Shown here one piece after another: positions 26,932-37,923 of a stretch of 45,223 nucleotides of DNA. This stretch comes from Candidatus Bipolaricaulota bacterium (GTDB taxonomy: Bacteria; Bipolaricaulota; Bipolaricaulia; UBA7950; UBA9294), in the NCBI GenBank assembly GCA_018817505.1, contig JAHITR010000230.1:1-45223 (forward strand), in the 5' to 3' direction. Position 1 is the stretch's first letter, and each line of letters starts with the position of its first letter. The notes under the pieces were generated by a model. That model worked only from the letters and a program-made list of their open reading frames with translations, ran no database searches and was not told where the DNA came from. A program made the position numbers and the translations under genes.

Positions 26932-28158
26932 ATGAATGGGATCCTTCATCACATCCAAAACACGACATCGACGCAGAACGAAGCACGGCGCCTCCTCGAA
27001 AAAGGAGTCGCCAAACTCGGGGATGCTGTGATTGCCGATGTGCAAACTCGCGGACGCGGACGATTTGGCCGCACATGGATCTCTCCGAACGGAGGCCTGT
27101 ATGCGACCTTCATCATGCGGCCTGAATCACTGTTGTCTCTCAAGGCAGGACTTGCCCTCGTTCGTGTGCTCGGGCGTGCGGGTGTCTCTGCCTGCCTCAA
27201 ATGGCCTAACGATGTGATGATCGGGGATCGCAAGATTGCCGGCGTGTTGATCGAAACCACAGGTACGCTCTCTCTTGTTGGCATAGGACTCAATCTTATG
27301 TCTGCCCCATTGGATGCGGCTACGTGTGTGTCTGCGCACATCCAACGTGTGGACAGGTATGAATGGGTACACGAGATTGGCAGTGAACTCATGGCGATGT
27401 CAGAAGAAGGATTCGATTTGGATGCGTATCGAGCTGCGTGCCTGACCTTGGGACACCTCGTTCGACTCGAGGGTGTGGGAGACAACGCGGTGATTGAAGG
27501 CATGGCTACAGACGTGGATAACCTGGGAAGATTGAGTGTGATGACGGCAGATGGAACGAGAATGATTTCTTCTGGCGAATGCTTCCACTTGCGGACAAAC
27601 AAGTCCGCAGTTGATCTACAGACGAAAAAGGACTACTTTCAAACCAGGGATCACGGAACAAGGGAGATCGCAATGACGTCCATTCTCGAACAGGCAATTC
27701 ATCTGGAAACGTCGGCAGAAAAGACCTATCGTGATGCGGCACAAGCAACCAGTGATTCAGGCGCTGCCAAAATTCTTGGATTGTTGGCGGATGAAGAAAG
27801 CGATCACGCAAAACGACTGCGCGGAATGGGCGATGTGTCCAGATTTCAGGCTCCTGACTTAATCCAGTCAGCTAAGATGTGGATTCGCGGCGCTGTCGAG
27901 GGCGGCGCTTCAGCAATCTCACTGGATGCCAACCTTCTGGACGTATTGCAGCGCGCGATGACAGTCGAACAAATGACAGAATCCTTTTACCGGGAACATG
28001 CCCAATCGACAAAGGATGACGCCGTGCGCGATTTGTTCCTCCGATTAGCTGACGCGGAGCGCAATCACTTCCTGTTGGTGGGATCTCTGATTGAACATTT
28101 CAATCGCCCGAATGAATGGGTTGAAAGCGCTGAATTCGGGCACCGCGACGAGTATTAG
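26932..28158 (+). CDS. Biotin-protein ligase fused to a rubrerythrin-like diiron domain
   Basis: A 408-residue ORF. Residues 1-222 form a monofunctional biotin-protein ligase (STQNEAR, biotin-site GRGRFGRTW, KWPNDV, KIAGVLIE, with a C-terminal SH3-like part to GECFHLR) and lack the HTH of E. coli BirA. Residues ~250-408 form a four-helix ferritin-like domain with Glu259, E289-x-x-H292, Glu350 and E376-x-x-H379, a complete rubrerythrin-type diiron set. The linker (223-247) contains AGGGAG at 27661-27666, 6 nt before Met248 (ATG 27673), plus a weak promoter-like TTGATC-17-TACTTT. A separate diiron protein could therefore also be made. The birA function is firm; whether the fusion is real or a lost stop codon is open. 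Confidence 0.85.
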   Translation: MNGILHHIQNTTSTQNEARRLLEKGVAKLGDAVIADVQTRGRGRFGRTWISPNGGLYATFIMRPESLLSLKAGLALVRVLGRAGVSACLKWPNDVMIGDRKIAGVLIETTGTLSLVGIGLNLMSAPLDAATCVSAHIQRVDRYEWVHEIGSELMAMSEEGFDLDAYRAACLTLGHLVRLEGVGDNAVIEGMATDVDNLGRLSVMTADGTRMISSGECFHLRTNKSAVDLQTKKDYFQTRDHGTREIAMTSILEQAIHLETSAEKTYRDAAQATSDSGAAKILGLLADEESDHAKRLRGMGDVSRFQAPDLIQSAKMWIRGAVEGGASAISLDANLLDVLQRAMTVEQMTESFYREHAQSTKDDAVRDLFLRLADAERNHFLLVGSLIEHFNRPNEWVESAEFGHRDEY

Positions 28159-28546
28159 GGACCTTGAAGTCTCCTAGGATGAGTTCCGTTGGGAACGCCC
28201 TGTGCTCTCCAAGGCAGGCGCCATGATTGGGCGAAGCTGCCCAGGAAATCCCGTTCTCTCTTGCTTGATGGGGTTGCGTTTCCGCGAGTGTGATTTCAAC
28301 AGCCTTTCCAAAGAACAGGGTGCTAGCCTTCCTATCGAAGACGGACGCCACTCGGGTTTCATCTTAGCAGAGTCTCCAAGCTTTCCAATCGCATGAATGA
28401 TTGAGGCCAGACAAAAGAACCAGGAACCGCATTCAACGAACGCAGTTCCTGAGAGAGTTTTTGTGTATTATCCTGGTCAGAGTTGATGTGCGCTGTAGCG
28501 AATCAAACCCACACAGAAGAGGGAATGCCATTCATCCACTTATGGA
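28159..28546. other. Gene-free spacer between convergent units
   Basis: 388 bp with no convincing gene. Short frames exist on both strands but lack SDs, promoters or recognisable motifs. The only clear element is the hairpin at 28421-28451. Confidence 0.6.
28421..28451. terminator. Bidirectional terminator between the birA fusion and the LysW-like genes
   Basis: CAGGAAC/GTTCCTG stem extended by GC/GC after one mismatch. On the plus strand TTTTTG follows 6 nt later (28458-28462); on the minus strand GTTCTTTTG follows. It serves both converging units. Confidence 0.75.
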
Positions 28547-28705
28547 CTACTCGTCGTAAAGGTCTAGTTCTGTGAGCACAAGCGGGTCGACCTTGTCTAC
28601 GGCAAGGATCGAACCACACTCCTGGCACAGAATTTCCAACCCCACACAGAGGTCACTATGGATCGTCGTCATCTGGCCGCAGGCTGGGCATTTAGCTGCA
28701 ATCAT
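28547..28705 (-). CDS. LysW-like amino-group carrier mini-protein 1
   Basis: A 52-residue acidic zinc-ribbon protein. Cys6/Cys9 (CPACG) and Cys27/Cys30 (CQECG) are followed by ILAVDKVDPLVL and a C-terminal DLYDE. The pattern CPxCG, 17 residues, CxxCG, LxV, DPLxL closely follows LysW, the carrier that binds alpha-aminoadipate or glutamate through the gamma-carboxyl of its C-terminal Glu (usual ending EDWGE). Here the aromatic at -3 and the terminal Glu are kept. No obvious SD is present; it follows the next paralogue by 21 nt. The carrier function is inferred from sequence; no LysX ligase gene lies in the window. Confidence 0.75.
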   Translation of the reverse strand: MIAAKCPACGQMTTIHSDLCVGLEILCQECGSILAVDKVDPLVLTELDLYDE

Positions 28706-28726
28706 GGTCGTATTTGTCGCTCGGGA

Positions 28727-28933
28727 CTACTCGTCCTCGTCTTCGTCCTCATCAAAATCATCTTCATCGAGTTCATCGGGATCAACGTCGATGACCGTGA
28801 CTTCAATCGGATCTTCTGAAGTGATCTCTAGAATTGAGTAGCAGTTTTCGCAGACTAGACGCGAAGACAGCTCTGCTTCGTCGGCGGCAACCGTGATGAT
28901 CTCGCCGCACTCTGGACATACAATTGTTTTCAT
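28727..28933 (-). CDS. LysW-like mini-protein 2 with poly-acidic tail
   Basis: A 68-residue protein with Cys6/Cys9 (CPECG) and Cys28/Cys31 (CENC), followed by SILEITSEDPIEV as in LysW, then a highly acidic tail ending in DEDEDEDE. The ATG at 28933 has GGAGG 5-6 nt upstream. The terminal Glu is kept, but the EDWGE sequence is replaced by alternating Asp/Glu. It lies 21 nt before paralogue 1 and 20 nt after paralogue 3 in one operon. Function is unknown; amino-group carrier or zinc-binding adaptor are the options. Confidence 0.75.
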   Translation of the reverse strand: MKTIVCPECGEIITVAADEAELSSRLVCENCYSILEITSEDPIEVTVIDVDPDELDEDDFDEDEDEDE

Positions 28934-28953
28934 AATTTCCTCCATTGGAACTC

Positions 28954-29172
28954 CTACTCGTCTGACTCTGAACGGTCCGATTTGTTGGATGAAACAGGCG
29001 CGCGCACGATGTTCCCTCTAGGATTAGTGCTCACAGCCAACCCCAGTGGACGGTCAGTCTTCACCTCGATAACCGTCCAACATTTGGGACACTTGAACTG
29101 GACGCCGATAACGGCCACGTGAACAGGGACGTCAACCATTTTTCGACACGCAGGACAAATAACCTCATACAT
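28954..29172 (-). CDS. LysW-like mini-protein 3
   Basis: A 72-residue first gene of the triplet. Cys6/Cys9 (CPAC) and Cys28/Cys31 (CPKC) are followed by WTVIEVKTDRPLGL, then a polar, Ser/Lys-rich tail ending SESDE. The ATG at 29172 has GGAGG 4-5 nt upstream. It is the least LysW-like of the three: Gly10 is Arg and the tail is not acidic until the end. All three paralogues end in Asp-Glu. Confidence 0.72.
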   Translation of the reverse strand: MYEVICPACRKMVDVPVHVAVIGVQFKCPKCWTVIEVKTDRPLGLAVSTNPRGNIVRAPVSSNKSDRSESDE

Positions 29173-29193
29173 TGCGCCTCCATCCACAGTCAA

Positions 29194-29451: not shown

Positions 29452-29685
29452 TCACCAATAGATCGAAATCCCCATCAGAAGATGAAGTGTAGCGAGAACT
29501 ATAGCGAGCGCTGCCATGGCGCGATGAACCTTCACGGGGACACGGCGAAGCCGTTTGCTCCACTTCCTGCCTGAAGCCAGAAGGGCTGTTATGAGGAAGA
29601 TCACATAAGTGGTCAACCCGACGAGCGCGATCATCGGGAACGGGCCAAGAGTTGTCCCATAGGCGAGATCCTCAATAAAATCCAT
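29452..29685 (-). CDS. Small three-helix membrane protein
   Basis: A 77-residue hydrophobic protein. Helices are at about 15-36 (FPMIALVGLTTYVIFLITALLA), a basic cytoplasmic loop GRKWSKRLRRVPVKVHR, and about 55-75 (MAALAIVLATLHLLMGI). Two His residues (VHR and LHL) spaced like haem-ligating histidines of small cytochrome b-type proteins are notable, but haem binding is unproven. The ATG has a strong SD (AAGGAGG, 4-5 nt). I do not recognise the family. It diverges from the SDR gene. Confidence 0.65.
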   Translation of the reverse strand: MDFIEDLAYGTTLGPFPMIALVGLTTYVIFLITALLASGRKWSKRLRRVPVKVHRAMAALAIVLATLHLLMGISIYW

Positions 29686-31075: not shown

Positions 31076-31199
31076 GAAGAATGGATGAAGATTCATTCTT
31101 CAACAAACGCGCTCAAAGCCGAGTTCATTACCTCACCAAGACTAGAGAACGAGTGAATATCACTCGCGCTCTCCCGTACTCGCTCCTAGAGCGAGTACG
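31076..31199. repeat. Three consecutive hairpins between sor and desulforedoxin
   Basis: Perfect arms: 31175-31185/31189-31199 (11 bp, 3-nt loop holding the sor TAG stop), 31150-31156/31160-31166 (7 bp, CGAGTGA/TCACTCG) and 31076-31083/31094-31101 (8 bp, GAAGAATG/CATTCTTC). None is followed by a T-run on the minus strand, so RNA stabilisation or processing is as likely as termination. Confidence 0.7.
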
Positions 31200-31527
31200 C
31201 AGATTCCCACAGCCCGTGAAGATTGCAGTACTCGAGGGCAATGAGTTCACTCAGACCCTCCATATTCACGTGAGCAACGACTGTCGGAACGCCGAACGTG
31301 GGGCCTAGATCGAACGTCCCGATGTGCACGGCCAAGCCGTTCTTCACGCCATACAGCGCGATCCATTTGATGTGATGCTCAACTGTATTTGGATGTGCCG
31401 TCTCCTTGCCGACAGTGACCTTCACGGCATTCTGGCCGCACTCATTGCAGTTGATGAGTTCAATGACGGGAACGTGCTTCTCTTTGCCTTCTTGGCCTGT
31501 GCCTTTGATCAATTCTCCAAGTTTCAT
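31186..31527 (-). CDS. Superoxide reductase (class II, neelaredoxin type)
   Basis: A 113-residue enzyme that reduces superoxide to peroxide without making O2. The Fe(His)4Cys site is complete: His18 (EKHVP, with Glu16 and Lys17 as catalytic residues), His45 and His51 (AHPNTVEHHIKWIALY), Cys101 and His104 (EYCNLHGLWES). An extra CxxC (Cys27/Cys30, NCNEC) is present. SD AAGGAGG lies 5 nt before the ATG. It has peroxiredoxin upstream and desulforedoxin downstream on the same strand. Confidence 0.95.
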   Translation of the reverse strand: MKLGELIKGTGQEGKEKHVPVIELINCNECGQNAVKVTVGKETAHPNTVEHHIKWIALYGVKNGLAVHIGTFDLGPTFGVPTVVAHVNMEGLSELIALEYCNLHGLWESAYSL

Positions 31528-31555
31528 GGTGCCTCCTTGTGGGGCGAGTTCTTCG

Positions 31556-32017
31556 TTACGAGTTGAGATCCTTCAGAACCTGAATGACTTCCTTTAAATC
31601 GGGCAATTCACTTATGGGATAAACCTTGATCCACCGAACGAATCCCTCGCTATCAAGGATGAGGTTGGCGCGTTCGGAGATGCCGGTGTCGTCGCGAAAG
31701 ATGCCCAGTGCTGATGCCAAACCACCATGGGGCCAAAAGTCAGCCAGCAGCGGTGTCCTCTTGACGTTCATGGATTCGGCCCACGCTTTCTTGCATGGCA
31801 CTGAATCGACACTGACACCGAATGCCACAGTATGGAGCTCCTCAAACACCGATGCATTCATCTCCAGGGACTCCATTTGCCGTTGACACACGCCAGTCCA
31901 GGCCAGTGGGTGAAATGACAGAAGGACGTGCTTTCCTCGTAGGGCAATCGGCGTAAATGGGGTGCCGTTCTGATCCTTGAGCTCGAATTGAGGGACCTGT
32001 GTTCCGAGTGTGATCAT
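31556..32017 (-). CDS. Peroxiredoxin (AhpC/TSA family)
   Basis: A 153-residue thiol peroxidase. The active-site motif PxxxTxxC is present as P37-LAW-T41-GV-C44, with Cys44 peroxidatic. A second Cys at 75 (SVPCKKAW) could resolve the sulfenic acid. ERANLILD supplies the conserved Arg. It resembles AhpE/BCP-type monomer or dimer enzymes. AAAGGAG lies 10 nt upstream; it lies 17 nt after oforB. Confidence 0.92.
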   Translation of the reverse strand: MITLGTQVPQFELKDQNGTPFTPIALRGKHVLLSFHPLAWTGVCQRQMESLEMNASVFEELHTVAFGVSVDSVPCKKAWAESMNVKRTPLLADFWPHGGLASALGIFRDDTGISERANLILDSEGFVRWIKVYPISELPDLKEVIQVLKDLNS

Positions 32018-32034
32018 GGTAGGAGACTCCTTTG

Positions 32035-32922
32035 CTAGGCACCGACTCGCGGTGCAGGATGAATCTGCATTGCCTTGAGACGGGATTGAATGATGCTTGG
32101 TGCGAGGGGCGGCAGCTTGAAGATCGGGCCGTCCCCCACTTTCTGTCGATAGGTTTCGCCGAAGACCTCCCGTGCAGGCTTCTCATAAAGCACGCCGATG
32201 GGGAATGAATCGGGCGCTTCCAGGGCCAGAGCGATGGCTCGATCACGATGCGTGGGATCATGGTCTGTGGGGATTGGTGTCGCGCGTTCCTTGTACCATG
32301 CCACGGGATGGTTACCCCACGTGATGCATGGCTGGATGACATCGATCAGTGAGAAGCCGCGATGCTCGATGGCTCTTTTTAGAAGTTCTGTCAACCCCTC
32401 CAAATCCCCGGCATATCCACGGGCGACGAACGTACAGTCGTGGACGATGGCCGTGGCCAGCATTTGAGATGGATCGATGGCCACGCCATCGAATTGCATG
32501 CGTGTCTTCTCTCCACGGCGAGTGGTCGGAGAGCCCTGTCCCTTGGTCAGGGCGTAGATCTGGTTGTCGTGAACGATGACAGTGATATCGGGATTGCGGC
32601 GAAACGCGTGAAGCAAGTGATTGCCGCCTTCTCCAAAGATACAGCCGTCGCCCGACGTGACAATGGTTTTGAGATCGGGATTAGCGATCTGAATGCCTAT
32701 CGCCGCAGGAATGGCTCGACCATGCAAGCCATTGAACACATGGGCGGCAATGTAATGCGGCGTCTTGGCTGCTTGACCGATTCCAGAAACCAGACAAACC
32801 TGGTGTGGCGCTAGATTCAGGGAGCCTAGTGCGCGCTTGAGCGCTGTTTGAATGCCAAAGTTGGGGCATCCAGGACACCATTGATTCTCAGCAGTTGTTC
32901 GATACTGCTCGATGGGAATCAT
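32035..32922 (-). CDS. 2-oxoacid:ferredoxin oxidoreductase, beta subunit
   Basis: A 295-residue TPP and [4Fe-4S] subunit. WCPGCPNFG supplies Cys16 and Cys19, with Cys43 and Cys199 completing the cluster ligands. TPP/Mg binding is by GDGCIFGEGGNHLLHA and HDNQIYALTKGQ. With the alpha subunit it oxidatively decarboxylates a 2-oxoacid to acyl-CoA and reduces ferredoxin. GGAGG lies 7-8 nt before the ATG, which overlaps the alpha stop (ATGA). The substrate (pyruvate, 2-oxoglutarate or branched-chain) cannot be set from this; the two-subunit form is often KorAB. Confidence 0.94.
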   Translation of the reverse strand: MIPIEQYRTTAENQWCPGCPNFGIQTALKRALGSLNLAPHQVCLVSGIGQAAKTPHYIAAHVFNGLHGRAIPAAIGIQIANPDLKTIVTSGDGCIFGEGGNHLLHAFRRNPDITVIVHDNQIYALTKGQGSPTTRRGEKTRMQFDGVAIDPSQMLATAIVHDCTFVARGYAGDLEGLTELLKRAIEHRGFSLIDVIQPCITWGNHPVAWYKERATPIPTDHDPTHRDRAIALALEAPDSFPIGVLYEKPAREVFGETYRQKVGDGPIFKLPPLAPSIIQSRLKAMQIHPAPRVGA

Positions 32923-34601
32923 GCGTCCACCTCCGAATGATCGCCAGCAAGTTCAGCGAGGATGGACGCTGCATCTATGGGCATCCCATCATAGCGCTCA
33001 ATCTTGCCTACGAGTTGAATATCGCCTTCTGCTTGAAGCAATCGGGCAAACTGGCCAGTCGCGTTGCCTTCGATAGTCCAGTACTTCACCTCGGCCGGTA
33101 GAGAGAGCTGGGGTAGCGGCCAAACGGTCGTGAAGTGCAAGGAGCCAACACGTTGGCCCATGCCACGAAGTCGATCCACCGCTTCGACAACCGCGCCCCG
33201 AGACGACCCCCAGCTGATGAGAACGGTTTCTGCATCGTCCGTGCGGTAGTCATCGGGGGGTGGAATTTCTCGCTTGAGTCTGCGCATTTTCTCTAGTCGC
33301 TTCTCGACCATAGCCGGACGAACGAACTCCAGATCTTCGGTGATGTGGCCTTCTTCCGTATGTTCGTCGGAGTCAATTCGCACGAGATGCTCGGATTGGC
33401 CCAATGCCAAGCGAGGGGAAATCCCGTCTTCAGTCAACGCGTAGCGCTGATAGGCGCCACTTTCCGAGGGGTCGGCCAGGCCTGATGGCACAGGCGTCTG
33501 CGGAATTGAGATGTCCATCACGCTGAAATGGCTGTCCGCAAGAAATTGGTCGGATAGCACGAGAACGGGAGTCTGAAATCGCTCAGCCCAATCAAACGCT
33601 CGATAGATTGCATCGATTGCGTCTTTGGGATCCGATGGCGCAAGAACCGCGCGTGGGAATTCCCCGTGGCCTCCATGAATCGCGAAGTTGAGGTCCTCCT
33701 GTGCCGTGCGCGTGGGCAATCCGGTCGCAGGTCCGGGGCGCTGGGCAACCACGACAACCAGCGGAGTTTCGGTCATGCCAGCAAGGCTGATGCCTTCAGT
33801 CATCAGAGCAAAGCCGCCTCCCGATGTGGCCGTCATGGCTCGTGCACCAGCAGCTGATGCCGCCAGCGACATATTGATGGCAGCAATCTCATCCTCAGCC
33901 TGTTCCACAAACACGCCCAATTCAGGATCCTTGGCGAAGGTGGTCATGATTCCGGTGGCGGGGGACATGGGATAAGCAGCCATGAATCGACAGCCCGCGG
34001 CGACCGCAGCTAGCGCGATGGCATCATGCACAGAGATGAACGAATGTGCGCTCGACGAAGAGTCCAAAACAATGGTAGAAGACGCATCGAGAGAGGGTAA
34101 AACGTGCTTGTATCCCAACGCGAGTGCATCGACATTCAGGCGTAGCACTTCTTCGGTGAGCCGGGAAAACCGCTCACATAGTGTATCTGCGAGCAACTCT
34201 TGGGAGATCCCGAGCACGGCCCCCAAACAGCCAGCGGCAATTGAATTGGCGTACAACAGCGAGCTGAACTGCTCTTTAGCAAGTGCCTGGAAGGGAACCC
34301 TGATCCCCTCGCCACCCGGAGACAATTCGCCTAATACTAAGCAGTTCGAGCTCGCTGTGTCTTGGTAGTGTGCCGCAGCTGTCGAATTCAATGCAAGAAT
34401 GACATCAGCATCATGCCGCGGCGCGTTCGGTCCTGATGCCCGGATGCGATAGGAGCTGTTGCCACCCCGAATTCGGGATTCGTATTCCTTCGATGTGAAG
34501 ACGCTGACTCCAGATCGCAGCAAGGCACGCGCAACGACATCGCCAACGGTTTGTATGCCTTCTCCAGCGGATCCGACAATGAAGATACTTCGATCTTTCA
34601 C
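32919..34601 (-). CDS. 2-oxoacid:ferredoxin oxidoreductase, fused gamma-alpha subunit
   Basis: A 560-residue subunit. The N-terminal gamma domain (about 1-175) starts IFIVGSAGEGIQTVGDVV with SRIRGGNSSYRI. The alpha domain (about 190-560) has the Pyr-type TPP part (ALAAVAAGCRFMAAYPMSPATG, EQAEDEIAAINMSLAASAAG in parts) and the C-terminal TVWPLPQLSL region. The start is GTG at 34601 with GGGGAG 4 nt upstream, overlapping the end region of the flavodiiron gene; an extension to 34652 would run 50 nt into that gene. The gamma-alpha fusion is the usual archaeal/anaerobe KorA arrangement. Confidence 0.93.
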   Translation of the reverse strand: MKDRSIFIVGSAGEGIQTVGDVVARALLRSGVSVFTSKEYESRIRGGNSSYRIRASGPNAPRHDADVILALNSTAAAHYQDTASSNCLVLGELSPGGEGIRVPFQALAKEQFSSLLYANSIAAGCLGAVLGISQELLADTLCERFSRLTEEVLRLNVDALALGYKHVLPSLDASSTIVLDSSSSAHSFISVHDAIALAAVAAGCRFMAAYPMSPATGIMTTFAKDPELGVFVEQAEDEIAAINMSLAASAAGARAMTATSGGGFALMTEGISLAGMTETPLVVVVAQRPGPATGLPTRTAQEDLNFAIHGGHGEFPRAVLAPSDPKDAIDAIYRAFDWAERFQTPVLVLSDQFLADSHFSVMDISIPQTPVPSGLADPSESGAYQRYALTEDGISPRLALGQSEHLVRIDSDEHTEEGHITEDLEFVRPAMVEKRLEKMRRLKREIPPPDDYRTDDAETVLISWGSSRGAVVEAVDRLRGMGQRVGSLHFTTVWPLPQLSLPAEVKYWTIEGNATGQFARLLQAEGDIQLVGKIERYDGMPIDAASILAELAGDHSEVDA

Positions 34602-34602
34602 G

Positions 34603-35784
34603 TTACTCCCCTGATTCGAGTCCTTTATGTCGGGAGGCAACCTCGTCGGCAAGCCGATTGAGTTGCGCGTAGGTCTCTTGAGTTGGCGCGCCCTTGGCGA
34701 ACACCGGATCCAACCAGGTTACTTTGAGCTGCTCGCAAAGCTGTTGGGTCTTCTCTGCTGCCTTTCCCGCCCAGCCATACGACCCGATGACGGCAGCATT
34801 TTGGAGCTTGGGACGCAGTGCCGCAGTGAGATAGGCGGCAAGCACGATACTGGGATGAGGACCGACCAACACGGTGGGCGTGCCGAAGATGACCGTCGCT
34901 GCGTCGACTAAGTGGATCGCGTATTCACCGAGATCCGTCTTTGACATATGGAACGAATGGACGTGAACCCCGCGATCATTGAGAGCCTCGATCAGATAAT
35001 CCACCATCAAAGCCGTCGACTCGTGCATCGAAGTGAATGGAATCAGCGCTAGATTCTTTGGCGCATCGTGTACCCAGTGTGAGTAGGCGTCGAGAATCCA
35101 TCCGGGGTTGTTGTGTACGGGGCCATGGCTGGGAGCGATCATCTCGATATCGAACGAAGACAGCTTCTCTAGATGCCCTTTGATCAAATGAGCAAAAGGC
35201 ATCATGATTTCTGCGTAGTAGCGCTTAGCTGCCTCACAGACGTGTGAGCCATCGCCTGAAAACAGCTCATCAGTTGCCAGATGGGAGCCGAACAAGTCGC
35301 ATGTGAACAGGAGTTTCTCTTCCTTCAGATAGGTGAGCATCGTCTCCGGCCAATGAACCCACGGGGCATGAATAAACTCAAACGTGCGGTCGCCCAGCGA
35401 GAGGGACTCCCTGTCTTCGACAGCGTGAATGCGGGCTTCAGGGATCCCGAGATGGTCGGCGATCATAGTTTTAGCCTTGGGGCTGGAGATGATCTGGATG
35501 TCGGGGTACTTGTCGAGGACAAGCGGTGCCGATCCAGAATGGTCCTGCTCGACGTGTTGGATGATAAGGTAGTCAAGGGTTTCGACGGCTTCGAGCTGGG
35601 CCAGCAGGGTCTCCGACTTGGCAGGGTCAGCTGTATCGATCAACGCTGTTTTTTCGCTACCACGAACGAGATACGAATTGTAGCTTGTGCCATTGGGAAG
35701 GGGAATGAGTTCATCAAACAGCCTTCGATCCCAATCGATGGCGCCTACCCAAGAAACTCCTGGTCTGATTTCTCTAGCTTTCAA
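34603..35784 (-). CDS. Flavodiiron protein (FprA, oxygen/NO reductase)
   Basis: A 393-residue two-domain enzyme. The metallo-beta-lactamase diiron domain (1-245) carries His77-x-Glu79-x-Asp81-His82, His144, Asp163 and His220, all expected ligands. The flavodoxin-like FMN domain (about 250-390) includes TSMHESTALMVDYL and GSYGWAGKAAEKT. It reduces O2 to water (or NO to N2O) with electrons from rubredoxin. The start is TTG at 35784 with AAGGAGG 6 nt upstream. The rubredoxin and flavoredoxin genes directly upstream are the expected electron donors. Confidence 0.95.
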   Translation of the reverse strand: MKAREIRPGVSWVGAIDWDRRLFDELIPLPNGTSYNSYLVRGSEKTALIDTADPAKSETLLAQLEAVETLDYLIIQHVEQDHSGSAPLVLDKYPDIQIISSPKAKTMIADHLGIPEARIHAVEDRESLSLGDRTFEFIHAPWVHWPETMLTYLKEEKLLFTCDLFGSHLATDELFSGDGSHVCEAAKRYYAEIMMPFAHLIKGHLEKLSSFDIEMIAPSHGPVHNNPGWILDAYSHWVHDAPKNLALIPFTSMHESTALMVDYLIEALNDRGVHVHSFHMSKTDLGEYAIHLVDAATVIFGTPTVLVGPHPSIVLAAYLTAALRPKLQNAAVIGSYGWAGKAAEKTQQLCEQLKVTWLDPVFAKGAPTQETYAQLNRLADEVASRHKGLESGE

Positions 35785-35923
35785 GACATCCTCCTTCGAT
35801 CCAACTCAAAACCTTCCATCGTCCGCCAGCTAGACAGCGCACAGAGAATCGGCTGCTCCAGAAGGAACGCACAGTGTTCACGGATCCATCAATCACTCGC
35901 GAATCCAACTCTCTGCGACCAGG

Positions 35924-35946
35924 AAAAAGCACACCCATTGGCGCTT
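35924..35946 (-). terminator. Possible attenuator between rubredoxin and the flavodiiron gene
   Basis: On the minus strand an imperfect stem (AAAGC/GCTTT plus inner pairs) is followed by a five-T run. It would reduce but perhaps not stop transcription into the flavodiiron gene. Confidence 0.4.
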
Positions 35947-35967
35947 TCTCCCATGAGCTCTTGGGGC

Positions 35968-36126
35968 TCACACCTTCTCGAAGAATTCCTTCGCGACGCC
36001 ACATTCGGGGCAAACCCAATCTGCTGGCAGGCTCTCAAAGGCCGTTCCCGCAGCGATTCCGTTGGCTGTATCTCCAACTGCCGGATCATAGACATATCCG
36101 CATACGGTGCATACCCATTTATCCAT
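35968..36126 (-). CDS. Rubredoxin
   Basis: A 52-residue Fe(Cys)4 electron carrier with both canonical knuckles: [16 protein letters not shown] and [14 protein letters not shown]. Length and spacing are standard. SD AAAGGAG lies 8 nt before the ATG, 3 nt after the flavoredoxin stop. It is the expected donor to the flavodiiron protein and to rubrerythrin. Confidence 0.97.
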
Positions 36127-36129
36127 TGA

Positions 36130-36648
36130 TTAGCTCCTTTCCTTGCGCAATGTATTGCGATACTCATTGTAGGTCAGTGGTTCACCTTGCCCTCTCGATC
36201 CGGCGCGATCGACATCGGCGACAAACAGTGAATGCGTTCCCAAGTCGACGGTCATCTCCCGGATGACGGTGCAGTCATAGACTGCCACTGCGTCGAGCAA
36301 GAACGGAATTCCCTGTTCAGTTAAACCATGCTTGAATCCCTCGAATTTATCTACATCTCGCCCTGATTGGAATCCAAATCGCCGCACGATGTCGCCGCAA
36401 GCCGCATTGCCTCGATCCAGCACGCTGATGCAGAACTGGCCCGACTCGAGGATCATCTCGTGCGTCAACGATTTTTTCCCAACGCCAAGTGACACGCGGG
36501 GCGGGGCATTGGTGACCTGCATCAACGCATCGAGACACTGTCCATTGATCTTCTCTCCTGCCTTGGTCGTTAGGATGTACAGCCCGTGCGTAACTTGAAA
36601 CAGAGCGACATTGATCGGTCCAGGCTCAGTGACGTAGGTGAATGGCAT
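36130..36648 (-). CDS. Flavin reductase-like protein (flavoredoxin)
   Basis: A 172-residue FMN-binding split-barrel protein. THGLYILTTKAGEKINGQCL, QVTNAPPRVSLGVGKKSLTH and SGQFCISVL follow the flavin reductase/flavoredoxin pattern. In clostridia the same domain is fused to rubredoxin (HRB) and passes NAD(P)H-derived electrons to flavodiiron protein; here it directly precedes a separate rubredoxin gene. ATG 36648 has AAGGA 5 nt upstream; a longer frame to 36756 runs into the ferritin gene and lacks a signal. Confidence 0.9.
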   Translation of the reverse strand: MPFTYVTEPGPINVALFQVTHGLYILTTKAGEKINGQCLDALMQVTNAPPRVSLGVGKKSLTHEMILESGQFCISVLDRGNAACGDIVRRFGFQSGRDVDKFEGFKHGLTEQGIPFLLDAVAVYDCTVIREMTVDLGTHSLFVADVDRAGSRGQGEPLTYNEYRNTLRKERS

Positions 36649-36658
36649 AGGTTCCTTT

Positions 36659-37177
36659 CTATACTTCTTGCGGTGGAAGAATGGGGCCGGCAACGCGCGT
36701 GCCGAGCTCGCGATCCGCCATGAGAAGGCCATGTCCTGAGTCGCCGATAAGTTCAAGCATGTCGATCACTGTGGACACGTTAGCCTCTTCCTCAACCTGC
36801 TCTGTCACGAACCACTGCAACATGATGGCCGCGGCGCGATCATTCTCTTCATCCGCCATCTTAGCAAGATCGTTGATCTTGCTGGTGATGAACTCTTCGT
36901 GTTGGAGAGCTGCCTTGAATGCAGCAAGAGGTGATTCCCAGACAGTTTGAGGTTTCTCCAATGCCTGCAATTCGATGCGTCCACCTCGATCATTGATGTG
37001 ATTGAAGAATCGGAGCGCGTGCGCGAACTCCTCTTGCGCCTGTGCCTTCATCCACTGTGCCATGCCGTCCAAGCTCTTGGAGTGGAAAAAGGCGGCCATG
37101 GAGAAATACAGGTAGGCAGAAAACGTCTCGTGCTTAATCTGTTCGTTCATGACGTCCTGAATTCGTTGACCAATCAT
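36659..37177 (-). CDS. ftn: Ferritin (bacterial FtnA type)
   Basis: A 172-residue non-haem ferritin forming 24-mer iron-storage shells. Ferroxidase residues Glu17, Glu50, His53 and Glu94 sit at the same positions as in E. coli FtnA, with a Gln/Glu set in WFVTEQVEEE. AAAGGAG lies 5 nt before the ATG. It stores Fe(II) and so limits Fenton chemistry, fitting its place between rubrerythrin and flavoredoxin. Confidence 0.96.
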   Translation of the reverse strand: MIGQRIQDVMNEQIKHETFSAYLYFSMAAFFHSKSLDGMAQWMKAQAQEEFAHALRFFNHINDRGGRIELQALEKPQTVWESPLAAFKAALQHEEFITSKINDLAKMADEENDRAAAIMLQWFVTEQVEEEANVSTVIDMLELIGDSGHGLLMADRELGTRVAGPILPPQEV

Positions 37178-37350
37178 TTGTCTCCTTTAAGCCTCTTCAT
37201 CAGAAGCTTGTGATCTGACTCTGTAGTCGTCCACGCAGGGCCCCAACCCATGAGAAGAGGTCCCAGCCTTTAGGGGCGTGATCCCATTAACGTCTTTTCT
37301 TGCCATCGAGCCAAACAGCGGGCGCTTCCATTGAAAAAAGCGCGGGGTGT

Positions 37351-37923
37351 CTACCAGTTCTCTCCGAGCAACTCGAAATGGGCCTGTTCGTGGGCACATG
37401 CTGGGCACAGACCTGGGGCAGCTGTTCCTTCGTGCAGGTATCCGCAGTTGCGGCAGCGCCAGACCACTTTCTCTGACTTGGCGAACACGGTCTTGCTTTC
37501 GATGTTCTTGGCTAATCCGAGATAGCGCGCTTCATGCTGCTTCTCTGCGACGGCAATGGCTGTGAAGACAGCGGCAATCTCCGGGAAGCCCTCGGTTTTT
37601 GCGACTTGAGCAAAACCGGGATACATCGTTGTCCACTCGTAGTGCTCGCCGCCTGCGCTTGCCTTCAGGTTCTCCAGTGTTGATCCGATAATGCCTGCGG
37701 GAAAAGCGGCGGTAATCGAGACTTCGCCACCCTGCAGGAATTTGAACAGCCGTTTGGCATGTTCCCTTTCCTGATCAGCCGTCTCCTCAAAGATGGCCTG
37801 CATCTGAACATACCCGTCCTTCTTGGCCTGTGATGCGAAGTAGGTGTAGCGGTTGCGGGCTTGGGACTCTCCAGCGAAGGCAGTCAATAGGTTCTTCTCG
37901 GTTTGCGTTCCCTTAAGATTCAT
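37351..37923 (-). CDS. rbr: Rubrerythrin
   Basis: A 190-residue peroxidase. The N-terminal four-helix diiron domain has [22 protein letters not shown] and [11 protein letters not shown]; the C-terminal rubredoxin-like domain has CRNCGY and [12 protein letters not shown]. It reduces H2O2 with rubredoxin as donor. AAGGAGG lies 11 nt upstream of the ATG, 27 nt after fpg. The 173 nt between rbr and ftn have only a weak hairpin (GCGCTT/AAGCGC) and no clear promoter. Confidence 0.97.

Follow-up and report, generated by a model that had tools for sequence, protein, structure and literature searches.

The locus and its genes

The window, meaning the whole stretch of 45,223 nucleotides analysed here, comes from a draft assembly of a Candidatus Bipolaricaulota bacterium that is 92% complete. 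On its minus strand it carries three short LysW-like genes arranged head-to-tail between positions 29172 and 28547, in the order P3, P2, P1 (Table 1). The gaps between them measure 20 and 21 nt, and the three are probably co-transcribed as a tightly spaced set. A GGAGG Shine-Dalgarno sequence is clear before P3 and P2 and weak for P1. An alternative P3 start, a TTG at 29193 that would give a product of 79 residues, was rejected in favour of the ATG with its GGAGG. The hairpin downstream of P1, a 15-pair stem followed by a T-rich tail, is suggestive only, since shuffled sequence contains on average 1.6 terminator-like sites in the same region.

Table 1. Coordinates of the three genes and of the features around them
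Feature	Position	Strand	Length (aa)	Details
Rubrerythrin-like protein	27673..28158	+		also flanks the site in the two related species G002 and G004
Terminator-like hairpin	28420..28452	-		downstream of P1
P1, third gene: LysW-like zinc ribbon	28550..28705	-	52	stop codon 28547-28549; ends LDLYDE
P2, second gene: LysW-like zinc ribbon	28730..28933	-	68	stop codon 28727-28729
P3, first gene: predicted LysW-fold zinc ribbon	28957..29172	-	72	ATG 29172; stop codon 28954-28956
Small membrane protein	29452..29685	-	77	synteny kept in three species of the genus

The three reading frames had been described in an initial annotation of the sequence as sharing a CPxC-x17/18-CxxC pattern and a following LxV...P segment, and all of this was recovered at the same place. 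The four Cys residues are present in each protein and invariant in the family alignment. P1 and P2 are strongly acidic, with a pI of about 4, and P3 is basic. The P2 tail is long and composed of Asp and Glu, ending in DEDE, while that of P3 is basic and serine-rich and terminates in SESDE.

Conservation and synteny

A second species of the genus (G002, draft assembly 89% complete) has an orthologous triplet at L045:7711-8328. Its proteins are 55-65% identical to those of the window, its gene order is the same and its gaps are 18-21 nt; this matching order and spacing argues that P3, P2 and P1 are not chance reading frames. Between the two species dN/dS is about 0.1-0.2 for the triplet genes (dN and dS being 0.23 and 1.17 for P1, and 0.22 and 1.92 for P2), with dS saturated for P3, where third-codon-position identity is 0.35. 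The triplet frames are real genes under purifying selection.

The flanks of the G002 triplet are those of the window, with the rubrerythrin-like gene on one side and, on the other, the 77-aa membrane protein (which yields a weak cytochrome b561-like match) followed by a short-chain dehydrogenase. All three flanking genes are also present in a third species (G004), where the triplet is missing from the site and about 80 bp separate the rubrerythrin and membrane protein genes; elsewhere that genome has one more distant LysW-like relative, ending in AAQIP. The triplet is thus under selection yet accessory, G004 having the site without it.

Two further observations concern the surroundings. In the window, a BirA-like biotin ligase and the rubrerythrin-like protein lie in one 408-aa open frame (26932-28158, starting at 26932), whereas in G002 and G004 they form two separate ORFs; the joint frame may represent a gene fusion or, alternatively, two genes that lack an intervening stop codon. 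On the other side, a minus-strand run of genes at 31186-37923 resembles an oxidative-stress and redox set of anaerobes, its members, named by eye from their translations, being desulfoferrodoxin-like, peroxiredoxin-like, flavodiiron-like, rubredoxin, ferritin-like and rubrerythrin-like proteins, together with 2-oxoacid oxidoreductase subunits.

Relationship to LysW

P1 narrowly passes the cut-off of 27 for the Pfam LysW globular domain (PF21344) with 27.2 bits, and P2 (24.0) and P3 (12.2) fall below it. The NCBIfam carrier models are missed widely by P1, which scores 21.3 against a cut-off of 75 for NF041070 and 17.2 against 53.2 for TIGR01206, and P2 and P3 score lower still. Of 24 family members, 23 match PF21344 at E<=0.01. 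When a profile of 24 variant members was compared with the PDB, it found the LysW chains 5k2m_E (4e-13) and 3wwl_A (6e-13), the next family being nearly six orders weaker. The next-best sequence matches include small zinc ribbons of the ribosome and of RNA polymerase.

AlphaFold models of P1 and P3, built only from sequences of the window and of fetched loci, have mean pLDDT values of 83 and 78, respectively. For both models LysW chains take the first six places among the PDB matches, each at a probability of 1.00 and followed by a sharp drop, and the P1 model reaches a TM-score of up to 0.81 against 3wwl; RNA-polymerase and ribosomal ribbons do not reach significance as fold matches. Because the alignment included one canonical LysW (L133), there is a small circularity, and the models retain some dependence on LysW. 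With every top match a LysW chain, a LysW fold is well supported by modelling for P1 and P3, and a LysW-like kinship of P2 is supported at the level of sequence. The LysW-like layout proposed at the outset is thus borne out by profile and by predicted fold, and placement in an unrelated zinc-ribbon family is not.

C-terminal tails

The carrier function of LysW proteins depends on the C-terminus. The EDWGE motif with its terminal Glu is the attachment site of the carrier and is recognised by a GSWGR motif of the ligase, and replacement of the terminal Glu by Ala abolishes arginine synthesis (PMC10433800). EDWGE is absent from P1, P2 and P3. As the initial annotation pointed out, all three window proteins nevertheless end in Asp-Glu (LYDE, DEDE and ESDE for P1, P2 and P3), and P1, with its DLYDE ending, retains both the aromatic residue at -3 and the terminal Glu. 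These traits do not extend to the orthologues in G002, which end in LTDD (P1), DDDI (P2) and ETDE (P3): the DE end is kept in P3, but across the set neither the terminal Glu nor the aromatic at -3 is conserved. The C-termini of homologues had been named beforehand as a refuting test of the carrier reading, and they do not keep the terminal Glu.

The wider family behaves likewise. A C-terminal Glu occurs in 6/40 variant sequences from the fetched loci, a few of the 40 being marginal family members, and in 16/16 canonical ones; the informative figure is 6/40, because the canonical class was here defined by the EDWGE ending itself. Other variants end in F, Y, I, A, D and other residues. One (L041:8435-8749) has, after the zinc ribbon, a hydrophobic C-terminal extension resembling a membrane segment, and in another (L119:3774-3950) EDWG is followed by SAKDY; neither fits easily with a terminal Glu that bears a substrate. 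The L119 protein may represent an intermediate stage of descent from a carrier. The L041 extension could anchor that copy in the membrane, and the end of the copy overlaps the next LysW-like gene.

Search for a loading enzyme

The initial annotation had noted that no LysX/ArgX-type ligase adjoins the triplet, and this holds for the whole assembly, in which the best match to a RimK/LysX-type ligase reaches 25.6 bits where 143.4 would be needed to pass the cut-off. The weak RimK-family matches were judged from their low scores to be other ATP-grasp enzymes. No operon of modifying enzymes adjoins the triplet. Considered as evidence on the lysine route, DapA in the same genome reaches 196 bits where the cut-off is 206. 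The lantibiotic-dehydratase C domain of PEARL type (PF14028) gave no match in 5 genomes, a result to be read with the silence of the control genomes.

The survey was extended to 100 Bipolaricaulota genomes, representing one class in the phylum, with LysW-like copies split by score into canonical (at least 56 bits) and variant (below 50). Canonical LysW was present in 18 genomes and a ligase above the cut-off in 19, the two coinciding in 18/18 cases (Fisher p 6e-19, a value that overstates independence because the genomes are related). Variant copies occur in 26 genomes, of which two have the ligase, and both of these also have canonical LysW. A RimK-family ligase is absent from all 24 of the 24 variant-only genomes among the 100. 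Since the assemblies with the triplet are drafts (92% and 89% complete), a ligase could be missing from each; such incompleteness might conceal it in a single genome, but scarcely in all 24.

That the three proteins are nonetheless true amino-group carriers, their C-terminal Glu or Asp being loaded by an unrecognised ligase encoded elsewhere for the making of an amino-acid-derived metabolite, would fit the predicted LysW fold, the Glu endings of all three window proteins and the DE end of the P3 orthologue. It is nevertheless improbable, given the Asp and Ile ends of the P1 and P2 orthologues, the lost aromatic at -3, the 0/24 ligase count and the lack of an adjoining modification operon. P1-P3 are very probably not amino-group carriers, and the carrier role first proposed for them is not upheld: homologues drop the terminal Glu and the assembly has no LysX/RimK-type ligase.

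An absent ligase, variable tails, the L119 protein with EDWG and no terminal Glu, and the empty site in G004 could be the marks of decaying leftovers that have no function today, the LysW pathway they served having been lost. We regard this as very improbable in view of the purifying selection on the triplet, the cysteines, spacing and order kept between two species, and the repeated tandem duplication described below.

Distribution and gene neighbourhoods

The notion of a three-carrier operon as a unique arrangement proved too strong, as other Bipolaricaulota genera also have two to four LysW-like genes in tandem. Three adjacent copies with a fourth 2 kb away are found in G060, four copies within 2.6 kb in G021, and pairs in G018 and G023. 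On one strand of Acetothermia 64_32 (L074:3299-6430), three LysW-like genes are followed by MscS, CorA and a fourth LysW-like gene. Outside the phylum, a scan with a narrow family alignment yielded only two archaeal loci, one of them canonical LysW. When a tree is built from just the globular part, canonical copies separate from variant ones; bootstrap values are weak, but the labels cluster strongly. In this tree each triplet gene groups with its G002 counterpart, which means that the three genes had already diverged from one another when the two species separated.

A solo LysW-like gene ending in IDG is also present in the window genome (L005:4244-4645) and in G002 (L044:4051-4476). Upstream of it there is an apparent Lys-rich peptide of 17-18 residues (MPAKKKAAPSKGGTKKK / MPAKKKPATTKSGGSKKK), which is the end of a longer frame.

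No neighbouring gene is common to the variant copies across lineages, and neighbours were for that reason not accepted as partner candidates. M20 and M29 peptidases occur near copies in genera g9 and g13, and the M20 ones are attractive candidates, since LysK belongs to the M20 enzymes. They were set aside as partners, the genes being about 0.4 kb apart and the arrangement missing in other lineages.

Two sets of neighbours bear on alternative functions. In several genomes of genus g31 the gene that comes next after the single LysW-like one, on the same strand, is a SpoU-family RNA methylase (assigned by Pfam in one of them), and in G096 one copy follows GreA; a SET-domain protein also lies beside a variant copy of G096. 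The first two associations, along with the ribosomal and RNA polymerase ribbons among the next-best sequence matches, would suit zinc-ribbon accessories of transcription, RNA modification or the ribosome, contacting nucleic acid or its machinery. We consider such a role unlikely for the triplet, which has no neighbours of this kind, whose P1 and P2 with their low pI are a poor match for direct nucleic-acid binding, and whose fold matches to the RNA-polymerase and ribosomal ribbons fall short of significance.

CorA, for its part, adjoins LysW-like genes in G060, where it shares their strand and MscS is also present, and in g9 and g13, where the orientation is convergent; MgtE is near one copy in G096. 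Small buffers or sensors of zinc or other divalent cations, with acidic tails, might be expected in such company. A part in metal homeostasis is, though, improbable: in most other lineages, the window included, no metal transporter adjoins, and the convergent orientation in g9 and g13 precludes co-transcription.

A proposed non-carrier role

With the carrier attachment tail and the loading enzyme both missing, it is most likely that the fold now serves a non-carrier role. Our preferred reading, to which we assign a probability of around 0.5, is that the triplet encodes non-carrier zinc-ribbon microproteins of LysW fold, reused as small docking or regulatory (adaptor) proteins. The two CxxC knuckles would hold one zinc, thereby stabilising a small beta domain. 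By analogy with the LysW globular domain, which docks on its enzymes, we argue that this domain would dock non-covalently on partner proteins. The rapidly evolving tails, which are acidic in P1 and P2 and basic and serine-rich in P3, would modulate this contact and would not bear a substrate. In the Bipolaricaulota the LysW fold would have been put to a new use, its copies multiplying and diverging into small adaptor or regulatory proteins. Counting against the adaptor reading are the Glu endings of all the window proteins and of the P3 orthologue, and neighbours that differ between lineages. A non-carrier zinc-ribbon family had been offered at the outset as the second option; it fits the results better than the first, with the specification that the family has the LysW fold.

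More speculatively, and less probably than not, the LysW fold might be an older or wider zinc-ribbon docking module of which covalent carriage is one use, the Bipolaricaulota then holding a second, non-carrier family in tandem arrays with dedicated partners. No description of non-carrier LysW-like families was found in the open-access literature.

The known role of LysW is that of a carrier. If confirmed, a lineage that retains and multiplies its fold without the carrier tail or the loading enzyme would show how carriers and plain zinc-ribbon adaptors can interconvert. For metabolic reconstruction, a Pfam 'LysW-like' match alone is not evidence for the aminoadipate route or for a LysW-dependent arginine route.

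Comparison with known systems

The triplet proteins resemble the LysW/ArgW carriers in size, in the CPxC-x17/18-CxxC pattern, in the LxV...P segment and in predicted fold, P1 and P2 sharing their acidic charge as well. They differ in having no EDWGE, in orthologues that do not keep the terminal Glu, in a genome with no LysX/ArgX ligase, in the basic character of P3 and in the tandem arrangement of three genes. In pearlin carrier peptides the C-terminal carboxylate is loaded by a PEARL enzyme (PMC9303977); unlike these, and unlike the AmCPs of natural-product pathways (such as Vzb22), the triplet has neither a cluster of modification enzymes nor a recognisable ligase. The archaeal zinc-finger proteins HVO_2753 and HVO_0758 are likewise very small, with two CxxC knuckles and weak sequence matches to P1-P3, but the latter score well below the cut-offs of those families, and the fold predicted for P1 and P3 is that of LysW.
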